Source of the DNA: a virus
Virus record (IMG/VR): IMGVR_UViG_3300042543_000324
Location: 1 to 26,405 of that record
DNA length: 26,405 bases
Reading direction: 5' to 3' (one strand)
This document shows positions 3,523 through 21,211 of this stretch, in pieces. The notes beneath the pieces were generated by a model. The model had not been told where the DNA came from. It made no database searches and was given only the letters and a program-made list of their open reading frames with translations. The position numbers and the translations under genes were made by a program. The first letter of the stretch is position 1, and each line of letters opens with the position of its first letter.

Positions 3523-3575
3523 AAAAACTCCACGAGGTCGTTGGCGTCTTCGAGGTCGCCGAAGTCGTCGATCAC
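3519..3575 (-). CDS. 18-codon coupling ORF between portal and capsid genes
   Basis: A GTG at 3575 overlaps the portal stop codon as GTGA. The reading frame runs 18 codons (MIDDFGDLEDANDLVEFL) to a TGA that overlaps the ATG of the protease-capsid gene as ATGA. It therefore fills the 49-bp gap exactly, and its last codons contain the capsid gene's GGAG. It may only carry terminating ribosomes from portal to capsid gene. Alternatively, the acidic peptide may be functional, or the frame may be chance. Confidence 0.35.
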   Translation of the reverse strand: MIDDFGDLEDANDLVEFL

Positions 3576-4993
3576 GCGGCGGCCTCCGGTTGCGGCTGTT
3601 GCGGCTGGTTTGGCGATGTCATCTGGAGGCCGAGCTCGGCCATGAGGGCACGCTCGGCGGCGATCTGGCGAAGCTCCACGTCCCAGCGTTTGCCCTGCCG
3701 CGCGTACTCGGCGGCGAGCGACGTGGTGAGCGTGTTGAGCCGCGTTTCGGCGGCCGACGCTTCCTTAGACGGGTCGACGTGGTCTTTGCCGTCCCAGACC
3801 CAAGCCCAATTCCATTCAGAGAAATCGGGCAGGCCGGGCGGCAGCACGCCCGCGAGGCTGGCCTCGTTGACCCACGCAGCAAGCAGACGATCGAGCATCG
3901 TCCGCTCTAGCTGGTCGCGCTCGACGCGCTGATTCATCGCATGGACTTGGTGATCCATGCGGCCGGATGCGTAGTTGTAACTCGACGAATTGAGCGCGGC
4001 GACGTTATACGGAAGTTGGAGGCAGCGAGCGATTTCGTTGAGAATTTCGCCTTTGAAATCCTTGTAGGTGCTGGTCGGTTGCTCGGCCTTGAGTTGCGAA
4101 ATGTCCCAGCCTTCGGGCAGCGTCGTGAGCGTGCGCTTGCTGATCTCCAACGCCGCGAACGCTTCGACCTCGTCGACCTCGGCGGCCGGGGAGTTGCTAT
4201 GGACGAACGCCGCAAAATCCGCCGCCGTCTCCGCTGCCGCGATCACGGCCTCGGTGTAGCGGCGAAGTTGGCCAAACAACTTCAGCGCGGGGGCCACCTC
4301 CGGAACGCCGCGATGTTGGCCCGCCCGGCTGGGCCGGAACCAATGCACCATCTGGGCCGCGGGCACCCGCTGAAATTCGAGATTGTTGATCCGGTAGTTT
4401 GAGCCGGGGTGAAAGTTCAGCACTTGGAAGGCAATGACGTTGCCGACCGCGTCGAACTCGATGCCGTCGACCGTGTTGCCTTCCGGCGTGATCGTCTGCG
4501 ACATGAGCTCCGTCGGCGTGGCGACCATCTCGGCCTCCACGAGGCGAACGTCGAGTTGCACGCCATCGAGCCGCGGGTTCGAGATCATGAGGGCGAAAGC
4601 CTCGCCGTCCACGACGAGCGCCTCGCGCATCGTGCGGAGCTTTGCCGGGAGGTCGACCGTCCAGCCCCAATCAAAGAACAGACGCTCCACCTCACGGGCC
4701 GCGTCGTCGTCGCCAATGTCGAGTTGCAGCCGCGGGCCCGTGCCGATCAGGTCGTTGGCGAGCGTCGCGGAAATCCCGGCGAGGTACGAGTTGTTTGCAC
4801 GCTCGTAGCGTGAGCGGTTTCGCAGCGTACGTCGCACAGACGGCGAAAGGGCAGCGTCGGCCGCGAATGCGTCGGCGTTGGCCCAATGGCGGTAGTCGTC
4901 GCCACGCTCGGCGGCGTCGTACTTGGCGCGAGCCACCGGGACCACGGCGGCGCGTGGCGTCTGCTTGCCGCGGAATAAATCGAGAAACGCCAC
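3572..4993 (-). CDS. Portal protein, lambda family
   Basis: This gene encodes 473 residues starting at GTG 4993, one base after the stop of the small upstream gene. The N-terminal half carries features of the lambda portal family (PF05136): a YERANNSYLAGISATLANDLIGTGPRLQ-type segment followed by FFDWGWTVDLPAKLRTMREALVVDGEAF. The middle segment EMVATP...VDGIEFDAVGNVIAFQVLNFHPG is the conserved wing region, and HWFRPSRAGQHRGVPEVAPAL is the crown/stem motif. The C-terminal part (YNVAALNSSSYNYASGRMDHQVHAM) also matches. Portals form the dodecameric ring through which DNA is packaged and ejected, docking terminase and later the neck proteins. Length and order are normal for the family. Confidence 0.93.
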   Translation of the reverse strand: MAFLDLFRGKQTPRAAVVPVARAKYDAAERGDDYRHWANADAFAADAALSPSVRRTLRNRSRYERANNSYLAGISATLANDLIGTGPRLQLDIGDDDAAREVERLFFDWGWTVDLPAKLRTMREALVVDGEAFALMISNPRLDGVQLDVRLVEAEMVATPTELMSQTITPEGNTVDGIEFDAVGNVIAFQVLNFHPGSNYRINNLEFQRVPAAQMVHWFRPSRAGQHRGVPEVAPALKLFGQLRRYTEAVIAAAETAADFAAFVHSNSPAAEVDEVEAFAALEISKRTLTTLPEGWDISQLKAEQPTSTYKDFKGEILNEIARCLQLPYNVAALNSSSYNYASGRMDHQVHAMNQRVERDQLERTMLDRLLAAWVNEASLAGVLPPGLPDFSEWNWAWVWDGKDHVDPSKEASAAETRLNTLTTSLAAEYARQGKRWDVELRQIAAERALMAELGLQMTSPNQPQQPQPEAAA

Positions 4994-7660: not shown

Positions 7661-8110
7661 CTAGTGGTTTGCGCGTTGTGCCAATTCGGCTGTATCGTTT
7701 TGCAACGCCTTTGCAACTTTGACAAAGGTCGCAGCCTCGTCGCCATATCGTTTCTCGACGATCAACCTCCGAACGTGCGTGTCGTCTCCAATCACATCCT
7801 GCAACGCATCGAGCACCGCTTTTGCAATGTTGTCTACGTCTGGCCTTGGCAACGCAGGCGCTCCCTTTCTAAGCCCCTTGGTTGTCCTATGTGACTTGGG
7901 ACGTGCAAACGCTGCAACGATACCTACGTCGATCATATCGCCTGTCTGACGCAACCCTGCGGCCTTGGCCTGCATGGCAACAGCCTTGCGGAATGCGTGA
8001 ACAGGATGAACCGATGGCACATACGCGCGAGCGAACCCGCCCCGAGTCGAGACTCGCGGCCTCGGCTGCGGGACGGGCTCGCCTGGCACAATGAACGTCA
8101 CGGCGTCCAT
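7661..8110 (-). CDS. rusA: RusA-family Holliday junction resolvase
   Basis: This gene encodes 149 residues starting at ATG 8110, which overlaps the upstream stop as TAATG; the longer in-frame extension is rejected. The sequence FIVPGEPVPQPRPRVSTRGG is the classic RusA N-terminus. The catalytic block PRPDVDNIAKAVLDALQDV (residues 89-106) supplies Asp91, Asp93 and Lys97, with Asp109/Asp110 following in IGDDTHV. RusA dimers cut Holliday junctions in phage recombination and help resolve branched DNA before packaging. Its position, last in the early operon and just before terminase, fits that role. A basic loop (FARPKSHRTTKGLRKG) probably contacts DNA. Confidence 0.93.
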   Translation of the reverse strand: MDAVTFIVPGEPVPQPRPRVSTRGGFARAYVPSVHPVHAFRKAVAMQAKAAGLRQTGDMIDVGIVAAFARPKSHRTTKGLRKGAPALPRPDVDNIAKAVLDALQDVIGDDTHVRRLIVEKRYGDEAATFVKVAKALQNDTAELAQRANH

Positions 8111-8388
8111 TAGCGATAGCGAATCACCGCATACCAGCGGCGCGTAATCGGCGAGTATGCGACGCCTTCCTCGACAATCTGCCGCTTCCCAAAGAAACAG
8201 CAATTCCGCCGCGCCTGCTCTGGCGTGTTTCCGGTGCCGATACCTTCCGTTTGAGAACAACCGGAATGAATCAACGCCCCACGCCGAGCGATGATCGTGG
8301 CGTGATCCTGTGCGGTCACGATCACAACCGGCGCGGCCTGGGCAACAGCACAAACAACCGACGCAACAAGCAAAGCAAACAAACGCAT
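8110..8388 (-). CDS. Small secreted protein with signal peptide
   Basis: This gene encodes 92 residues. ATG 8388 is chosen because GGAGGAC precedes it and the resulting N-terminus MRLFALLVASVVCAVAQAA is a good signal peptide with an AQA-A type cleavage site. The mature part (about 73 residues) has three to four cysteines (HSGCSQTEG, RRNCCFFGKR) and an aromatic end, YSPITRRWYAVIRYR. Cysteine pairing outside the cytoplasm is plausible. I do not recognise a family. Secreted accessory proteins in phage early regions sometimes alter the host envelope, but nothing here proves this. The gene couples to rusA by a TAATG overlap. Confidence 0.65.
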   Translation of the reverse strand: MRLFALLVASVVCAVAQAAPVVIVTAQDHATIIARRGALIHSGCSQTEGIGTGNTPEQARRNCCFFGKRQIVEEGVAYSPITRRWYAVIRYR

Positions 8389-8449
8389 TGAAAAGTCCTC
8401 CGTTGACTTCCACGGTTTCTGCCGTGGCCTTCGCATCGTCGCTGCCGTG

Positions 8450-8785
8450 TCAAGAAACGTGGCTACCCTCGCGTGGCTGGCAAACGCCTTGCCGCCATTT
8501 GCTGACCTTGCTTTGCGTACTCGCGACGGGCTCGGACATCCGCTGCCGAATGTGAGCCTCACGGCATTCGGCCATCCGAACCGCCTGGGCGGCCTTTTCT
8601 GCCGCGTCTGGCTCATCGTTGGCCGCTTGGTTGCGTTGCACGAAATGGCGCTTTGGGAGCCTGTGCAACGCCGCCAGTTGCCGTAGCTGCGTCTCGCTGA
8701 TCAGCAAAATCGCGGCGACCTCGTCGGTCGTAAACTTGCTGTTGCACCAGACGCGCCGCAGTCTCTCGTAGGGAATGCGTCTCAT
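8450..8785 (-). CDS. HTH DNA-binding protein, possible small terminase or GcrA-like regulator
   Basis: This gene encodes 111 residues starting at ATG 8785, an ATGA overlap with the end of the dnaN gene. Residues 8-45 (RRVWCNSKFTTDEVAAIL, then LISETQLRQLAALHRLPKR) form a helix-turn-helix of the kind found in GcrA-like and terminase-small-subunit-like proteins. The rest is charged and probably helical. Its nearest clear partners are dnaN upstream and, further downstream, terminase. A DNA-recognition subunit of the packaging motor or a transcription regulator (for instance of the late promoter) are both possible, and the sequence does not decide between them. Confidence 0.6.
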   Translation of the reverse strand: MRRIPYERLRRVWCNSKFTTDEVAAILLISETQLRQLAALHRLPKRHFVQRNQAANDEPDAAEKAAQAVRMAECREAHIRQRMSEPVASTQSKVSKWRQGVCQPREGSHVS

Positions 8786-9900
8786 GCGTCCTCCATCGGC
8801 ATGATGACCGTGCGGGTGTTTTCGCCAATAGATAGCACCACAGCCGACGACTTGTCGGCGATCGTCAGCGTCACCGCTTCGGCCGGGTCGATCGAGCCGC
8901 ACGACAGCCACTCGCGAACGAATCGCGGATTAAGACGCGTCGATACCTTGTGGCCGACCTCGACGAGATCGCACGTCGTTGCCGCCTCGCCGTAGGCGCT
9001 CGACTTGCCATGCACATGGAGACCGTCGTCCGAGACCGTGAGCGTCACCGCTTGGCTCTGCTCATCTGTGCAAATCGCCGCTTGTTCAACGGCCGCGAGC
9101 AATGCCTCGGCCTGCACCATCGAGGGCGTCGCGTCGTGGGCCTTGTCGGCGTCACGCCAACGAGGAAACCGCCCTTCGACCATGCGGGCTTGGACGATCA
9201 CGCCGTCCACGTCCGCCACGAGCTCGCTGGCGTTGGCTGACAGTTGCACGGCGTCCGCAGACCGAGCGAGCTTTACGAGCACGTCGATTGCCCGCCTAGG
9301 TGCCAAAACGTCGCGGTCGTCTGTCGCCTGGTCGATGTCGCACGACGCGATACACAACCGGCGGCCGTCAGTGCCGACAAAGGTCAGCGTCCCGTCCTTG
9401 AACTCGATCAGCACGGCCCCGAGGGCAAACCGGCTGGAGTCGGTATCAGTGGCAAACCGCACGGCCTGCACCAAAGACGCAAGCTGATCTCCAGGCAGGC
9501 GAGCGATTGCGTCCGAAACGCCGCACGCCGGAAAAGGATACTCGGCCACGTCTTCGACCGGTATTTTCCATTCGCCGTTGCCGCCGCGCACCGTGGCGAG
9601 CCCGCCGTCGGCGGCGATCGTCACCTCGTCGTCGGCGTGTAGCAGGCCGACAATCGTCAAGAGCCTTGCGTGGGGGAGCAAAAAGTTATGGCCGCTCGAC
9701 TCGGGGAGCGGGGCGGTAATTTTTAACTCCAGGTCCGTTGCCGAGACGACGCCGTCCGAGATGAGCACGTTTTGCAAGATTGGTTTCGGGCTCCTCGTCG
9801 GCACCGCCGCCGATACCGTTCGCAGTGCTGCCGCTAACGCTCGCGCTTCGCACGTCATGCCACCAACGCGGGTCTTTCGTTTCGTCGCTGTCGCTGTCAT
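8782..9900 (-). CDS. dnaN: DNA polymerase III beta subunit (sliding clamp)
   Basis: This gene encodes 372 residues, the normal length for beta clamps. ATG 9900 is chosen because AAGGAT lies upstream; an earlier in-frame start would add residues with no clamp similarity. Clamp landmarks include CEARALAAALRTVSAAVPTR at the N-terminus, VISATDLEL-type and VEGRFPRW segments (the latter as MVEGRFPRWRD), SRFALGAVLIEF, and FVGTDGRRL. The C-terminus, TVIMPMEDA, keeps the hydrophobic MPM that forms the partner-binding pocket in bacterial clamps. It would encircle DNA and tether polymerase and other clamp-binding proteins. No phage polymerase is encoded in the window, so it presumably works with the host replisome or a replicase elsewhere. 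Confidence 0.93.
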   Translation of the reverse strand: MTATATKRKTRVGGMTCEARALAAALRTVSAAVPTRSPKPILQNVLISDGVVSATDLELKITAPLPESSGHNFLLPHARLLTIVGLLHADDEVTIAADGGLATVRGGNGEWKIPVEDVAEYPFPACGVSDAIARLPGDQLASLVQAVRFATDTDSSRFALGAVLIEFKDGTLTFVGTDGRRLCIASCDIDQATDDRDVLAPRRAIDVLVKLARSADAVQLSANASELVADVDGVIVQARMVEGRFPRWRDADKAHDATPSMVQAEALLAAVEQAAICTDEQSQAVTLTVSDDGLHVHGKSSAYGEAATTCDLVEVGHKVSTRLNPRFVREWLSCGSIDPAEAVTLTIADKSSAVVLSIGENTRTVIMPMEDA

Positions 9901-10009
9901 TTGGAGAATCCTTTCTCGTGAGTGAAATTCCAACACAAATGCCAAGACCGAAGGTCAAGGCGTTGACGATGAAGCCGAACGTCACGAGTGCCAGTTGGGA
10001 GGCTGTCAT
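9686..10009 (-). CDS. Membrane protein gene overlapping dnaN out of frame
   Basis: The 107-residue frame starts at ATG 10009 in an ATGA overlap with the upstream gene, which is the normal linkage in this operon. Residues 1-31 (MTASQLALVTFGFIVNALTF, then GLGICVGISLTRK) form a convincing transmembrane segment with a basic cytoplasmic end. From residue 37 on the frame lies inside dnaN for 215 bp. The tail is polar (DSPNDSDSDETKDPRWW) and then arginine-rich, as expected of an overprinted sequence. The membrane part alone covers the space before dnaN. The gene is probable, but whether the whole overlapping tail is functional is unknown. No family is recognised. Confidence 0.5.
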   Translation of the reverse strand: MTASQLALVTFGFIVNALTFGLGICVGISLTRKDSPNDSDSDETKDPRWWHDVRSASVSGSTANGIGGGADEEPETNLAKRAHLGRRRLGNGPGVKNYRPAPRVERP

Positions 10010-11791: not shown

Positions 11792-12619
11792 TCAGACAAT
11801 CGCGGGCGTCCTAGGCGTCTTCGTCCTCAACTGGGCCCAATCGCAATATGCGGCCTCGAACAACGCGGGCGACCTGTGCCCTAGGTGAAGCCGCCCGGCA
11901 CCGGCCTGGGCCATCTCGCAGTGAGTCGCCCCCGAGCGCCTCAACCACTTTGACGAGCCGCCGAGGCCCTGCGAGTCGAGCAGCGTCCGCATGTGCCGCA
12001 TTGCCATACGCTTGCCGCACGCCCAGCCGAGAATCCGTCCGTCGGGCGACGCGGCAAGCATCGCGTCGATCGCCGTGAGACAGGCTGGCGTGAGCGGCCT
12101 CGACAGCGGATCGCCGGTCTTCGACTGCGTCCACGCGAGCGTATCGCCGTCCAGGTTGTCGGCGGTGAACGACATCACGTCGCCAAACCGTGCCCCGCAT
12201 TCGTAGGCCACGAGCACCCAGCAACGGAGGAAAGCCCCGAGGTCTGCGCCAGATCGCAGACGCTTTCCGTCGTGAACCTTCGTTGCGTCAATCAAGGCTC
12301 GCAATTGGTCGAGCGTCCATGCCTTAGTCGGTTTCTTGCGAGACTTGACGCGCATCACGCCGCGAGGGGCTTGGTCGATCATCCCGGTCTGGTAGGCCCA
12401 GCAATACAGCGTCAGAAGAATCGTCCGCTCGCTGCGTACGGTGGTCGACTGCTTTGTTTCCGAAATCGACCGGAGGTAGGCGTTCACGCGGTCGACCGTG
12501 ACCTCGCCGCACCGGGCAGCGATGCGCGTCACGTTGTCGGCGTAGACCTTTGAGACGATCCGCTCGCCAAGGTATGCCTTGGCGATGCGGCTAAACGTCA
12601 TGATCGTGGGCTTTTTCAT
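11792..12619 (-). CDS. Tyrosine recombinase (second, in early operon)
   Basis: This gene encodes 275 residues starting at ATG 12619 with AAGGAC upstream. The N-terminal SAM-like DNA-binding part (residues about 10-90) is followed by a catalytic domain: Arg144 (YECGARFGDVMSF), Lys167 (TQSKTG), KWLR (224-227, Arg227), LGH (His248) and Tyr258 (FEAAYCDW). The usual His of the HxxR box is Lys here, a substitution seen in some family members. It is read in the same direction as recT and the replication genes, so it is an early rather than lysogenic gene. It may be a resolvase or an alternative integrase. A second complete recombinase lies at 15434-16351. Confidence 0.88.
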   Translation of the reverse strand: MKKPTIMTFSRIAKAYLGERIVSKVYADNVTRIAARCGEVTVDRVNAYLRSISETKQSTTVRSERTILLTLYCWAYQTGMIDQAPRGVMRVKSRKKPTKAWTLDQLRALIDATKVHDGKRLRSGADLGAFLRCWVLVAYECGARFGDVMSFTADNLDGDTLAWTQSKTGDPLSRPLTPACLTAIDAMLAASPDGRILGWACGKRMAMRHMRTLLDSQGLGGSSKWLRRSGATHCEMAQAGAGRLHLGHRSPALFEAAYCDWAQLRTKTPRTPAIV

Positions 12620-15433: not shown

Positions 15434-16351
15434 ATGATAATGCGAGAGATTTTGGGTCGGTATGCAATCCTCCAAAACCTGAGCGACCGGACGGTGGAGC
15501 TTTACGGCCACACGCTCGATCGGTTTGCGGAGCACCTGGGGCACGAGCCGACGATCGACGACCTCGACGACCTCGTTGTCGCCGGATTCCTTCGGTGGCG
15601 GGCAGCCACGCCTAGGAAGCGTGGAAAGCCGTCTGCGGCCTCGGTGGCAAAAGACAAGTCGCAGTTGACCGCCCTTGCCAACTGGGCCGCCAAAAAGCGC
15701 CTAGAGCGGTCTGACGGGAAGCCGGTCGAGTTCCTATCGCTGCCGCGGTCGCGAAAGATTCGCCACGCCCCGCAGGCGTATACGGCCGACGAGGTTGCGC
15801 GTCTCATCCGGCTGGCAAAGACCCGCGTCGGGACCATCGACGGCAAGCCCGCCGCTTGGTGGTGGTCGACGTTGATCTACGCGGCGTGGTGTAGCGCGGA
15901 GCGCATAGGTGCCTTGCGCGAGCTACGCTGGAAGGACGTAGACCTCCAGGGCCGTACGCTCTTGTTCAGGGCTGAGACTAGGAAAGGGCGGTCGGCCGAC
16001 ATTCAGCGGGCCATAACGCCAGACCTCGCGGCGTCGCTCGCCCGGTTTGAGGGGCCGCCCGGCGAGCTTGTATGGCGTTGGGATCGCGCACACCATTCGC
16101 TCTGGCCTAGCCTCAAATTGCTCTGCCAACGAGCGGGCGTACGCGGGACAGGGTTCCACCGGCTGCGGAAAGCGTCAGCGTCTTACGTTGCCCTTGGTGG
16201 CGGTGATGCGACCGAGCACCTAGGGCACGCCTCGCCAGAGATGACGAGGGCTCACTACCTTGACCCGAGGATCACGTCGCCAAAAAACGCGCTTGACTAC
16301 CTCCCTCGCCTTGACATAGACGGAAATAGTCAAGGCAGCGGCAGTGCTTGA
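15434..16351 (+). CDS. int: Tyrosine integrase
   Basis: This gene encodes 305 residues starting at ATG 15434, eight bases after AGGAGG; it is the only plus-strand gene I accept. Residues of about 1-95 form the SAM-like core-binding domain (LSDRTVELYGHTLDRFAEHL). The catalytic domain carries Arg157 (CSAERIGALREL), Lys184 (AETRKG), His242 and Arg245 (FHRLRKASAS), His265 (LGHASPEM) and Tyr275 (RAHYLD), all canonical. It would integrate the phage at a host attachment site and, with an excisionase, reverse this. It is divergent from the HTH gene at 14966-15229 and convergent with the late operon. The integrase promoter could not be placed with confidence. Confidence 0.93.
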   Translation: MIMREILGRYAILQNLSDRTVELYGHTLDRFAEHLGHEPTIDDLDDLVVAGFLRWRAATPRKRGKPSAASVAKDKSQLTALANWAAKKRLERSDGKPVEFLSLPRSRKIRHAPQAYTADEVARLIRLAKTRVGTIDGKPAAWWWSTLIYAAWCSAERIGALRELRWKDVDLQGRTLLFRAETRKGRSADIQRAITPDLAASLARFEGPPGELVWRWDRAHHSLWPSLKLLCQRAGVRGTGFHRLRKASASYVALGGGDATEHLGHASPEMTRAHYLDPRITSPKNALDYLPRLDIDGNSQGSGSA

Positions 16352-17756: not shown

Positions 17757-18017
17757 TCACCAGCCTTGTGAGTGGTCTAGGACAGGCTCGCCGTCCGCAC
17801 CAATGCGAGCGTGTACGAGTTGCGGCTCGGCGGGCGGCTTCTCAGCGACTAGGGCGACCCACAAAAAGGTCTTTGCCGCCTTGGCAAGAAACCGGAGGAC
17901 GGGCCGGTCCTGTGCGGGCGTCGGGTTGACCGGCGAGCTCGGCGAGCGAGCCAGCCACCAACCGGCGGCGAGGCAGAGGCAGCACAAAAAAACGAGTTGG
18001 CGGTTTGTCAGTGTCAT
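17757..18017 (-). CDS. Membrane-anchored protein
   Basis: This gene encodes 86 residues starting at ATG 18017, immediately after the peptidase stop (TAAATG). Residues 7-23 (QLVFLCCLCLAAGWWLA) form a single membrane segment with three cysteines. A second hydrophobic patch (FLAKAAKTFLWVALVAEKPP) lies at about 43-62. The rest is Pro-rich and polar. No family is recognised. Being coupled to the peptidase gene it may act in the same process, such as export, inhibition or anchoring. Confidence 0.65.
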   Translation of the reverse strand: MTLTNRQLVFLCCLCLAAGWWLARSPSSPVNPTPAQDRPVLRFLAKAAKTFLWVALVAEKPPAEPQLVHARIGADGEPVLDHSQGW

Positions 18018-19127
18018 TTAGAGCCCCAACTGAAAATCGAGGAATTGGTTGCGGACGGGCGTCCGCGTGAGCGTGTCAACGGCGGGGGCGAGCCAGTCGC
18101 CGTGATGAATGTCGCGCCAATCGAAACCCGAGACGACCGAGCCGATGGCCCAGGCGTCGCCAAGCATCCCCTCGACGACGCGGCGGCGGGCCCAGAAGGC
18201 ACCGGCCGGGAGGTCGGGCGGGTATTTGTTTTCTTGCGGGCCGATCCAGTTAGGGCCCCACGAGTTCAAGATGCAAATCAGATCGTCGGGCGAGCCGTTG
18301 GCCTTGTAGCGCACGCCACAGGCAACCATCTGATGCATCCATGTGCCGCTGGCTTCGGCGATGCCGCCTTCTCCGAGCCGGGACGAAAACCCCTGCGAGC
18401 TCGCCAGCGTCACCGGGAAACCGGCCTCCAAGGCGGCGCACAATTCCTGCCACGACCGGACAGCTACGACGTGGCGGCACGGGTGCCGCTTCGCCTCGGC
18501 GTCCATCTTGCCGCCGTCGTTTTGCCCGCCGCAGCCGTACGCGCCCCAATCCTTTTCGAGCGTGGCGTTGTAGGTGGTGAGGTCGACGCCTGTGTATTGT
18601 TTGCGGTACACGACGCCCCACTCGCGGAGCCATTTCGCGGCTGCGAATCCGGTAGACCCGTCGCTCCATCCTGCGAACGTCTTGCCGCGAGCCTCGCATC
18701 GCGAGCCTCCGTAGATGGCCTCGGTGCTCGGGGCGAGCGGCGGCTCGGCCGTCTTGCCGAGCTCCCAGTCGATTGCCTCGGAAATCCAAACCGCGTGCAT
18801 TGCGCCCCACGCGACGCATGACCCGTTCAGTTGCTTGCCGACGATGAACGGCGAGCCGTAGCGGGCGACGTGGGCCCTCTGCATGGCCCGGTATAGAAAC
18901 GTGTCACGGCCTGCCGCCTTTTGCATGGCCTCCGGGGCGGCCTGCGAAAAAAAACGCTCGCGCCCCAACTCGTCGAGAAACGCGCGAGCCCCGTCTGGGT
19001 CGGGCGTGTAGCCAAAATTTCGGCCGACGGAGTTCTCCAACGTCTGCGCAGACCGCAGGAAGATAAGCGCGGCTAGGCCAATCAGTATGGCGGCGGCAAC
19101 GAGCCGCGTGGCGCTATCGAATCGCAT
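18018..19127 (-). CDS. Membrane-anchored papain-like (C1) cysteine peptidase
   Basis: This gene encodes 369 residues starting at ATG 19127; the frame extends upstream but overlaps the previous gene. A membrane anchor or signal (RLVAAAILIGLAALIFL, about 8-24) precedes the catalytic domain. Papain-family residues are clear: Gln99 and Cys104 in GKQLNGSCVAWGAMHAVW, His265 in GTWMHQMVACGV, and Asn288 in LICILNSWGPNWIG. Additional cysteines could form disulfides (GGSRCEARGK, YGCGGQ, KRHPCRHV), consistent with action outside the cytoplasm. The target could be host envelope protein, a structural precursor, or peptide cross-links in the cell wall. C1 peptidases are unusual in phage late operons. Confidence 0.85.
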   Translation of the reverse strand: MRFDSATRLVAAAILIGLAALIFLRSAQTLENSVGRNFGYTPDPDGARAFLDELGRERFFSQAAPEAMQKAAGRDTFLYRAMQRAHVARYGSPFIVGKQLNGSCVAWGAMHAVWISEAIDWELGKTAEPPLAPSTEAIYGGSRCEARGKTFAGWSDGSTGFAAAKWLREWGVVYRKQYTGVDLTTYNATLEKDWGAYGCGGQNDGGKMDAEAKRHPCRHVVAVRSWQELCAALEAGFPVTLASSQGFSSRLGEGGIAEASGTWMHQMVACGVRYKANGSPDDLICILNSWGPNWIGPQENKYPPDLPAGAFWARRRVVEGMLGDAWAIGSVVSGFDWRDIHHGDWLAPAVDTLTRTPVRNQFLDFQLGL

Positions 19128-19575
19128 CAGCGCAGGCCCTCCCGAGCTCGCGATAGGCGGCGACCCACTTCGACCGCTGCTCAGGGCTGACGGGCCCGCC
19201 GCTGGAGCCGACGGCCGCGTCCAGATATTTGTGAATGGCATCGCGAACGTGCGGCTGACGGGCCCCGAGGCTTTCGCCACGCATCCGGCTTTCACGGGCG
19301 GCGACGCGCAGGTCGTCAAACGCTACGCCGCTCTTTAGGCGCGGCCCGCCTTCACGGCTGCCGTCGTAGTCGATCGTGGACGCGAGCTCGTCGCAGAGGG
19401 CGGCGAGGCTGGCAGCGTCGGCGGCTGCCGTCGGCCCGATGAACAGCCCGCGCATGGAGAGCCCGCCGTCTGGCTGCGGGGCGGGCGTCGGGGTCGCCGG
19501 GCCGCTTGTGAGCCACGAGAAGAGGCAGCCAAGCACGAGGGCGGCAGCGAGCGTGTAGCGCGTGCGGTCGCTCAT
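19114..19575 (-). CDS. Membrane-anchored protein, unknown
   Basis: This gene encodes 153 residues starting at ATG 19575 (ATGA overlap with the upstream gene). Residues 6-24 (RYTLAAALVLGCLFSWLTS) are a membrane segment containing VLGC, which only weakly resembles a lipobox. A Pro-rich stretch (PATPTPAPQPDG) leads to a helical domain (DAASLAALCDELASTIDYDG, then SRMRGESLGARQPHVRDAIH) ending KWVAAYRELGRACADAIR. No family is recognised. It overlaps the start of the peptidase gene by 14 bases and may be a partner of it. A spanin-like role is possible but unproven. Confidence 0.65.
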   Translation of the reverse strand: MSDRTRYTLAAALVLGCLFSWLTSGPATPTPAPQPDGGLSMRGLFIGPTAAADAASLAALCDELASTIDYDGSREGGPRLKSGVAFDDLRVAARESRMRGESLGARQPHVRDAIHKYLDAAVGSSGGPVSPEQRSKWVAAYRELGRACADAIR

Positions 19576-19826
19576 GCGTCGCTCCCGGCCACTAGGGCGA
19601 GCGTTAGGGTGTCGATTGCCGCCTTGCTCTTGTCGTCGAGCTTCTCCGTCTGGAGGAGCCGGAGGCGGACGTGAGCGAGGTCGGCGATTGCCGATTGGTA
19701 GGTCGGGGCGAGGCGCGGCGGCTGCGTCGCCGCGTCCGACGGGCCGAGCACCGGCGGGCGTTTGTTCCAAAGGGCGGGCCCGGCAAGGAGCAGGGCGGCG
19801 GCACCCAACAAAACGACATACGTCAT
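19572..19826 (-). CDS. Membrane-anchored helical protein
   Basis: This gene encodes 84 residues starting at ATG 19826 (ATGA overlap). The N-terminal MTYVVLLGAAALLLAGPALW is one membrane segment. The exterior part is a Pro-rich spacer, then a helix (YQSAIADLAHVRLRLLQTEK, then LDDKSKAAIDTLTLALVAGS). A short anchor plus a periplasmic helix is the layout of inner-membrane spanins such as Rz, but many unrelated proteins share it. No family is recognised. Confidence 0.65.
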   Translation of the reverse strand: MTYVVLLGAAALLLAGPALWNKRPPVLGPSDAATQPPRLAPTYQSAIADLAHVRLRLLQTEKLDDKSKAAIDTLTLALVAGSDA

Positions 19827-20197
19827 GCGGCGGCCTTTCTCACGAGCGGCAACAGGGATTCAATGGCACCGGATGCGGCCAGCAACACGAGCGAGCGGAC
19901 GGCCGGGCGGACGATGAGCCAGATCGGCCAGCCGAGCAGCGGGACGCAGCGATCGGCGACTTCGTCAAACAACAGCGCAATGGAGTTAACGACGAATTGT
20001 TTACGCAGCGCGCCGTCCACCGGGATCGCGTCGGCCGCGCTGATCGCGATCCGCATGAGCGCGACGGCAAGCTCGTTGAACTCGGCAACGGTAATGCCGC
20101 CAGCGGCGGCGCTTTTGGCCGTGGCGACGAATGCTCTGACCTTTTCGGCGAGCGAGAAGAGGTCGGCCGAGGCGGCGACGGGGGCGGAGGAAATCAT
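19823..20197 (-). CDS. Hydrophobic protein, possible holin
   Basis: This gene encodes 124 residues starting at ATG 20197 (ATGA overlap). The N-terminal 75 residues are helical and moderately polar (SADLFSLAEKVRAFVATAKS, then ITVAEFNELAVALMRIAIS). The C-terminal part (RCVPLLGWPIWLIVRPAVRS, then LVLLAASGAIESLLPLVRKA) has two hydrophobic stretches interrupted by Arg. That could be a membrane hairpin, as in some holins, or a buried core. No family is recognised. Its place at the head of the membrane-protein cluster suits an export or lysis role. Confidence 0.6.
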   Translation of the reverse strand: MISSAPVAASADLFSLAEKVRAFVATAKSAAAGGITVAEFNELAVALMRIAISAADAIPVDGALRKQFVVNSIALLFDEVADRCVPLLGWPIWLIVRPAVRSLVLLAASGAIESLLPLVRKAAA

Positions 20198-20688
20198 GGG
20201 GCGACTTGTTGCACTCCTGCGACGACAACTTCGTAATTAGCGGCAGCCGCGCCGCCGTTGATAACATTCACATCACCGGCGTTTGCTGCTGAAAACTGCG
20301 AATTTCCTTTAGGCCAATACATCAACAAAACCGCTTCGGGTGGGAGCGGCGTTTCTTCTGCGTCTTGCAAAACGACCGAGAGCGTCACGGTTTGCGAAAG
20401 GTTGCGGATGTAAAAAAGCCGAACCTTGCTTATTTCGATTCGCAGGCTTCCGGTTCCGCCAAACACCGACAGAGGCAAGCCTGCTTCTATGTTGAACACG
20501 TCGGATGACGACGCAGCCACGGTGCGAACGTCTTTCCAGAATGCGTTCGCTTGATTGTCTCCACTGCCATTTGACAATGTGAGCGGCAGCAAGACGGTCG
20601 CCGAATCCGTGACGGTTGTTGTGTTCAAGTCGTCCGTCCACTGCGGAACAATCCGCAGCGTGCCGCTTAGGGAAAAACTAGCTGCCAC
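20194..20688 (-). CDS. Probable structural protein, paralogue of the next upstream gene
   Basis: This gene encodes 164 residues starting at ATG 20688, inside the end of the upstream gene (11-base overlap). It is beta-rich: SLSGTLRIVPQWTDD, then GSGDNQANAFWKDVRTVAAS, RIEISKVRLFYIRNLSQTVT and AGDVNVINGGAAAANYEVVV. The same pattern of a short N-terminal GTLR/GSLR motif, a GDG/SGD..AN/EAD...F.D.RT block and a closing N-AA--Y segment occurs in the protein at 20678-21211, so these are divergent paralogues. The DNA is visibly more AT-rich than its neighbour. A virion (fibre, spike or decoration) role is likely but not proven. Confidence 0.65.
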   Translation of the reverse strand: MAASFSLSGTLRIVPQWTDDLNTTTVTDSATVLLPLTLSNGSGDNQANAFWKDVRTVAASSSDVFNIEAGLPLSVFGGTGSLRIEISKVRLFYIRNLSQTVTLSVVLQDAEETPLPPEAVLLMYWPKGNSQFSAANAGDVNVINGGAAAANYEVVVAGVQQVAP

Positions 20689-21211
20689 TGCCGCTGCCTC
20701 CCGCTGCCGTAGACGTGCCGATCAGATAGAGCGAGTAGGTCACGCTCGCCGCGTTGGGGTTCGCGATGCGAATGACGCTGTTATCCGCCGTCACCTCCCA
20801 GGCGTCCGTCTGGTTGACCGCGCACCACTCGGAGCCTGGTCCGACCTCGGCGGCGTAGACGACCGTCGGGCGGCCTGGGTCGACGCCCACGAGGAGGCGG
20901 CGGCCGGATTGCGTCGATTCGTTGACGACGCGGATGATGCGAAGTTGCCGGAATACGAACGGCACATCGACGCCTAGCGCCGTCTGCTCCAGGTCGAGGA
21001 GGTCAAACGACTCGATCGTATTGGCCGGGATCGTCCGTTGGTCGGCGAACACGAGATCGGCCTCGCCGGGGCCGTCGCCGTCAGTGATGTTGTAGGTCGC
21101 CGACTGCGTTTGCCGGTTGGTCACGCTGCCGACCTCCTGGGCGTCGGTGCGCAGCCACGAGAGCGAGGTCCGCAGCGAGCCGGTCAGCGTGTCGGTGAGC
21201 GTGTCAGCCAT
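20678..21211 (-). CDS. Probable structural protein
   Basis: This gene encodes 177 residues starting at ATG 21211. It is beta-rich: TLTGSLRTSLSWLRTDAQ, then NITDGDGPGEADLVFADQRT, VPFVFRQLRIIRVVNESTQS and NSVIRIANPNAASVTYSLYL. It ends in a Ser/Gly tail (TAAGGSGSGS). It is paralogous to the protein at 20194-20688 but keeps the GC-rich composition of the phage. No known family name is recalled. The position and tandem duplication suggest a surface component of the virion. Confidence 0.65.
   Translation of the reverse strand: MADTLTDTLTGSLRTSLSWLRTDAQEVGSVTNRQTQSATYNITDGDGPGEADLVFADQRTIPANTIESFDLLDLEQTALGVDVPFVFRQLRIIRVVNESTQSGRRLLVGVDPGRPTVVYAAEVGPGSEWCAVNQTDAWEVTADNSVIRIANPNAASVTYSLYLIGTSTAAGGSGSGS

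Follow-up and report, generated by a model that had tools for sequence, protein, structure and literature searches.

Results

A peptidase gene in a compact block of a phage genome

The stretch of DNA analysed here, which we call the window, is a 26.4-kb virus record carrying a capsid/protease fusion, a terminase, RecT, a sliding clamp and two integrase-family genes. A portal gene was inferred at 3572-4993, as its relative in the related contig G001 matches a portal family. The sliding clamp (8782-9945, minus strand) is a phage-encoded DNA polymerase III beta subunit with all three domains. The integrase-family genes (15434-16351, plus strand; 11792-12619, minus strand) lie on one phage contig, the second giving a weak Pfam match (E = 0.0089).

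An initial annotation had placed a membrane-anchored papain-family (C1) peptidase at 18018-19127. These coordinates are right, and the gene, for which no strand had been given, lies on the minus strand; the plus strand of the same interval is not open, with stops in its translation. The peptidase gene (C1) is the fourth of six minus-strand genes, in the order o124, TM84, TM138, C1, TM86, o107:

19823-20197, minus strand: o124, 124 amino acids, first gene of the block, with a C-terminal hydrophobic stretch at about residues 90-115
19572-19826, minus strand: TM84, 84 amino acids, with an N-terminal membrane segment and ATGA overlaps on both sides
19114-19575, minus strand: TM138, 153 amino acids, with an N-terminal hydrophobic helix (residues 3-23) and a helical domain
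18018-19127, minus strand: C1, predicted C1A papain-type peptidase, 369 amino acids, intact from ATG to TAA
C1 protein, layout: anchor helix at about residues 5-34; conserved N-terminal segment at 38-95, led by GYTPDP; then the catalytic domain
C1 protein, catalytic residues: Gln99, Cys104, His265 and Asn288
17757-18017, minus strand: TM86, 86 amino acids, with an N-terminal membrane segment, starting directly after the peptidase stop codon
17430-17753, minus strand: o107, 107 amino acids, whose N-terminus resembles a signal peptide and whose tail is rich in Cys, CCGECTGGWITHGDGHRTPCPCPASCKCK

Conservation of the peptidase

Single-sequence searches with the peptidase found nothing in Pfam, PHROGs, or the annotated phage and plasmid collections. 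A first single-sequence scan of genome contigs likewise returned no relatives, and an alignment-based query was needed to find them. Among IMG/VR viruses, relatives with 40-88% identity are encoded at 61 loci. The four catalytic residues occupy exactly the positions first noted: Gln99 and Cys104 are invariant across an alignment of 30 non-redundant relatives, and His265 and Asn288 in all 29 of the 30 whose sequence extends that far. Ser289-Trp290-Gly291, following Asn288, is likewise invariant among the non-redundant relatives. The window protein has a Gln-x4-Cys spacing, and its relatives vary between x4 and x5. Pairwise dN/dS values of 0.06-0.17 among the close relatives compared indicate that the gene is under purifying selection.

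Absence or breakage of the gene in relatives had been named as a point that would count against the proposal. On checking, a frame-broken copy was present at only one of the 61 viral loci (L062); at a few others the gene is truncated at the contig edge. On the L062 contig (G014), the peptidase at 8001-9056 is broken by frame changes and the terminase and sliding-clamp genes are also split; this contig reflects either sequence errors or a decayed prophage. Recoding or selenocysteine use in relatives with internal stops was considered and rejected, as those stops are natural protein ends and only L062 is broken.

Predicted fold and membrane anchor

We utilized AlphaFold2 to predict the structure of the peptidase, as the initial annotation had proposed, and obtained a model with a pLDDT of 87.6 and a pTM of 0.83 from a 33-row alignment. 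A Foldseek search against the PDB gave 158 matches at E ≤ 0.001, the best 50 of which are C1-type cysteine peptidases, with xylellain from Xylella fastidiosa (PDB 3ois) first (E = 1.4e-11). VIA-align superposed the model on xylellain with Z = 23.1 and an rmsd of 2.8 over 237 residues, at 23% identity. This best structural match also covers the segment preceding the catalytic domain (model residues 31-333). The phage protein differs from xylellain in its additional membrane helix, its setting in a phage module and the low identity. Matches among viral structures include uncultured Caudovirales proteins named Peptidase_C1. The Pfam profile PF00112 did not match the window protein and matched one of 33 relatives at E = 0.029, but this profile is a detection aid rather than a defining trait and misses divergent members. 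Membership of C1A is assigned from the papain fold and the catalytic residues, not from a profile match, and the model identifies the protein as a xylellain-like peptidase with the full catalytic set, in line with the original proposal of a true C1-type enzyme. Taken together, the 61 viral loci, the dN/dS values and the confident papain-fold model place the observation far beyond chance.

The enzyme had been set apart from the NlpC/P60 and CHAP types usual among phage lysins with a papain-like fold. The contrast is a fair one: those lysins share a papain-like topology in a broad sense, whereas the full Gln-Cys-His-Asn layout of C1 enzymes is found here, and searches of the window and 16 related contigs gave no sequence match to either family. 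Neither is among the structural matches listed, although a remote relation to them is possible. C1A peptidases of the xylellain type have, however, already been reported in tailed phages (Caudoviricetes; PMC10380794).

A single hydrophobic helix is predicted at the N-terminus, in agreement with the single membrane segment first noted. It has a hydropathy of 2.35 over 19 residues, is preceded by an Arg and was modelled by AlphaFold2 as a continuous helix spanning residues 5-34. In the eight members compared, 5 to 9 of the 19 residues are small. According to the positive-inside rule, positive charge before a membrane segment stays on the cytoplasmic side. The Arg before the helix therefore predicts that the catalytic domain lies outside the cytoplasm. 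The N-terminal segment may possibly be cleaved in the cell.

The peptidase belongs to a conserved module

The genes o124 and TM84, and TM84 and TM138, are joined by ATGA overlaps, the end of TM138 shares 14 nt with the beginning of the peptidase gene, and C1 and TM86 stand back to back, an arrangement that suggests coupled translation. Searching with the window genes by tblastn at 66 peptidase loci, we found TM138 at 64, o124 at 58, TM86 at 56 and o107 at 38. Most of the 66 loci carry this compact set of some six genes, on otherwise unrelated phage backbones. In G011, G012 and G013, whose genes otherwise differ, the module is nearly the sole block shared with the window.

Small membrane proteins adjoin the enzyme, but none of the module proteins has a family match to a holin, spanin or endolysin that would mark a holin-endolysin-spanin cassette. 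A holin role is possible for o124. The TM138 model shows a helical domain behind an anchor helix; a fold search gave no match at E ≤ 0.001 and no recognised fold. Its best structural match (Z = 7.5) was set aside as within the range of common helical-bundle arrangements. Nor do we claim TM138 as an outer spanin, a lipobox-like motif being visible by eye in some members only.

At some loci, TM86 and o107 are separated by an additional small membrane protein with several helices. At L017, L019, L021 and L065, an extra membrane protein of 76-85 amino acids lies just after the peptidase or TM86; it has one to three predicted segments, appears GlsB/YeaQ-like by eye and could be holin-like. Directly upstream of the module in the window, two adjacent minus-strand genes (20194-20688 and 20678-21211) encode proteins that both match PHROG 22694, of unknown function.

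Since TM138 is the upstream neighbour of the peptidase at nearly all loci (64 of 66), it could be a substrate, an inhibitor or a chaperone, and the peptidase might process phage proteins, maturing a membrane-bound assembly or module partners such as TM138. We regard this as very unlikely: the window already has a head maturation protease fused to its capsid protein, and assembly proteins are seldom membrane anchored.

Hosts and genomic position

Using an alignment profile to search genome contigs, we identified five loci, including one in the isolate Blastopirellula marina DSM 3645. Two others come from bins labelled Planctomycetaceae or Planctomycetota. A further one, L067, is a partial module; its 6-kb contig carries the label Alphaproteobacteria, which may be a binning error. 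A sample of 392 genomes from the B. marina phylum contained 13 with peptidase matches, with E values ranging from 3e-132 to 1e-4. These loci link the viruses that carry the module to Planctomycetota, the phylum sampled here.

After the module, B. marina has genes with matches to terminase, portal, head and tail families. Two relatives show the same order, with the module directly before terminase and portal, and a third has retained terminase. The module of the window, like that of G001, stands close to the end of a series of tail and fibre genes, ahead of a convergent integrase. Both positions, the end of the tail/fibre run and the site before terminase and portal, are frequent sites of lysis genes. 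The phage context proposed for the peptidase is supported by these arrangements.

A membrane-anchored protease with its catalytic domain predicted to face outward, carried by integrase-bearing phages and resident elements, could also act on proteins of the host surface or periplasm to another end: superinfection exclusion, removal of receptors from debris, or blocking of an envelope stress or defence response. However, the module stands among structural genes rather than lysogeny genes, and its order is unchanged on different backbones. This explanation therefore seems improbable to us.

A thioredoxin-like neighbour in chromosomal loci

A PHROGs scan of the module partners gave weak matches only, the best of them to a thioredoxin family (E = 0.0023), and this match led us to a redox neighbour of the peptidase. 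At many viral loci, the gene after TM86 encodes a protein with a signal-like N-terminus and a Cys-rich tail; the tail of o107 is missing at some (L058, L065 and L038). In several Planctomycetota chromosomes, the gene at the o107 position encodes a thioredoxin-like domain in place of the Cys-rich tail or besides it.

At nine of 12 chromosomal loci, a gene encoding a thioredoxin-type CxxC motif is at most two genes away from the peptidase; the other three lack such a neighbour. Across the 262 genes of these loci, all nine motif-bearing genes fall within two genes of the peptidase. The corresponding binomial estimate of 1.7e-6 is descriptive only: it treats the loci as independent, although they are partly related (several close relatives, which we read as about four lineages), and the choice of motif followed inspection of the sequences. 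In PDB searches, the CxxC protein of B. marina best matched a thioredoxin disulfide isomerase (E = 8.7e-5) and that of L100 a thioredoxin (E = 1.2e-9); that of L094 had no match by sequence search. Thioredoxin similarity is thus confirmed for two of these neighbours at the level of sequence comparison. In Planctomycetota chromosomes, two genes that each adjoin a C1 peptidase relative (L094:737-1438 and L095:609-1694, both minus strand) encode proteins in which a thioredoxin-like CxxC segment is fused with the Cys-rich motif seen in phage o107.

Peptidoglycan hydrolases and the planctomycete envelope

We searched 17 module-bearing contigs (the window and 16 related contigs) for Amidase_2, Amidase_3, Phage_lysozyme, M15_4, NlpC/P60, M23, SLT and CHAP and found none of these eight families, while positive control genomes did give matches. 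Pfam scans of G001, G012 and G013 (35-62 kb) likewise contained none of them. The targeted searches replaced a PHROGs scan of G001 (at least 25 families) and a Pfam scan of the pooled extra proteins (best 25 of 63). As the contigs are not rated complete, the absence of these common families is suggestive only, and these phages could encode an unrecognised peptidoglycan hydrolase.

The initial annotation had considered an enzyme cutting envelope proteins a good fit for a host with a protein-rich envelope. The link to Planctomycetota favours this idea, as older work cited in PMC3035269 describes planctomycete envelopes as made of protein with much Pro and Cys, cross-linked by disulfides. An envelope of this kind would be a fitting target for a protease that has a thiol partner. 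In contrast, a later study of four planctomycete strains detected components of peptidoglycan in them and found their cells sensitive to lysozyme; from two of the strains, peptidoglycan sacculi were isolated (PMC4432640). These data weaken the protein-wall argument, and a protease alone might not suffice.

The peptidase could instead use its C1-type fold against peptidoglycan, as a tethered endolysin whose endopeptidase activity cuts stem peptides or cross-bridges rather than protein. Planctomycetes carry peptidoglycan containing DAP (PMC4432640), the module-bearing contigs searched revealed no other common hydrolase of it, and the viral structure matches of the peptidase include phage proteins labelled N-acetylmuramidase and peptidoglycan binding-like. 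The protein resembles SAR endolysins such as Mu gp22 (PMC9239132) in its N-terminal membrane segment rich in small residues, its late phage position and its small membrane-protein companions, and it is possible for its C1-type domain to act on peptidoglycan. Unlike SAR endolysins, however, the window peptidase matches no muralytic family; its catalytic layout is that of protein peptidases, and no cell-wall-binding domain was seen in it. A peptidoglycan substrate would need no redox partner, though such a partner could keep the catalytic Cys reduced. On balance, we consider a tethered endolysin unlikely.

Discussion

Our preferred reading makes the block a lysis module that acts late and opens the envelope: a tethered C1A protease would attack envelope protein with the help of thiol chemistry. 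We put the probability of this reading at roughly 0.5. It is based on computational results: the papain fold with its invariant catalytic set, the conserved and overlapping gene order of the module, the lysis-typical position, the link to Planctomycetota, the redox neighbour and the lack of matches to common peptidoglycan-hydrolase families in the contigs searched.

For topology in the cell, activity, substrate, timing and a role in lysis, we infer the following. The N-terminus of the xylellain-type peptidase would tether it to the host inner membrane, so that the catalytic domain projects out of the cytoplasm, and the peptidase would serve as the enzyme of a late phage module in viruses of Planctomycetota. 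The module would open the host envelope at the end of infection, its small membrane proteins setting timing and location and its protease cleaving envelope protein. The secreted partner, Cys-rich or thioredoxin-like, may keep the catalytic Cys reduced, reduce disulfide cross-links of wall proteins, or both. A more far-reaching version, in which proteolysis and disulfide reduction are the main means of breaking the envelope and replace a classical peptidoglycan hydrolase, would suit disulfide-linked protein walls; we hold it tentatively and consider it somewhat doubtful.

In the literature searched, we found no report of a membrane-anchored phage C1A form, the conserved block or the redox neighbour, and no description of how tailed phages exit Planctomycetota cells. 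If the preferred reading is true, the protease module provides a concrete, testable answer to the question of phage exit from these bacteria. It would also bear on the share of planctomycete wall strength that is owed to protein, and would extend the phage lysis repertoire beyond peptidoglycan hydrolases.
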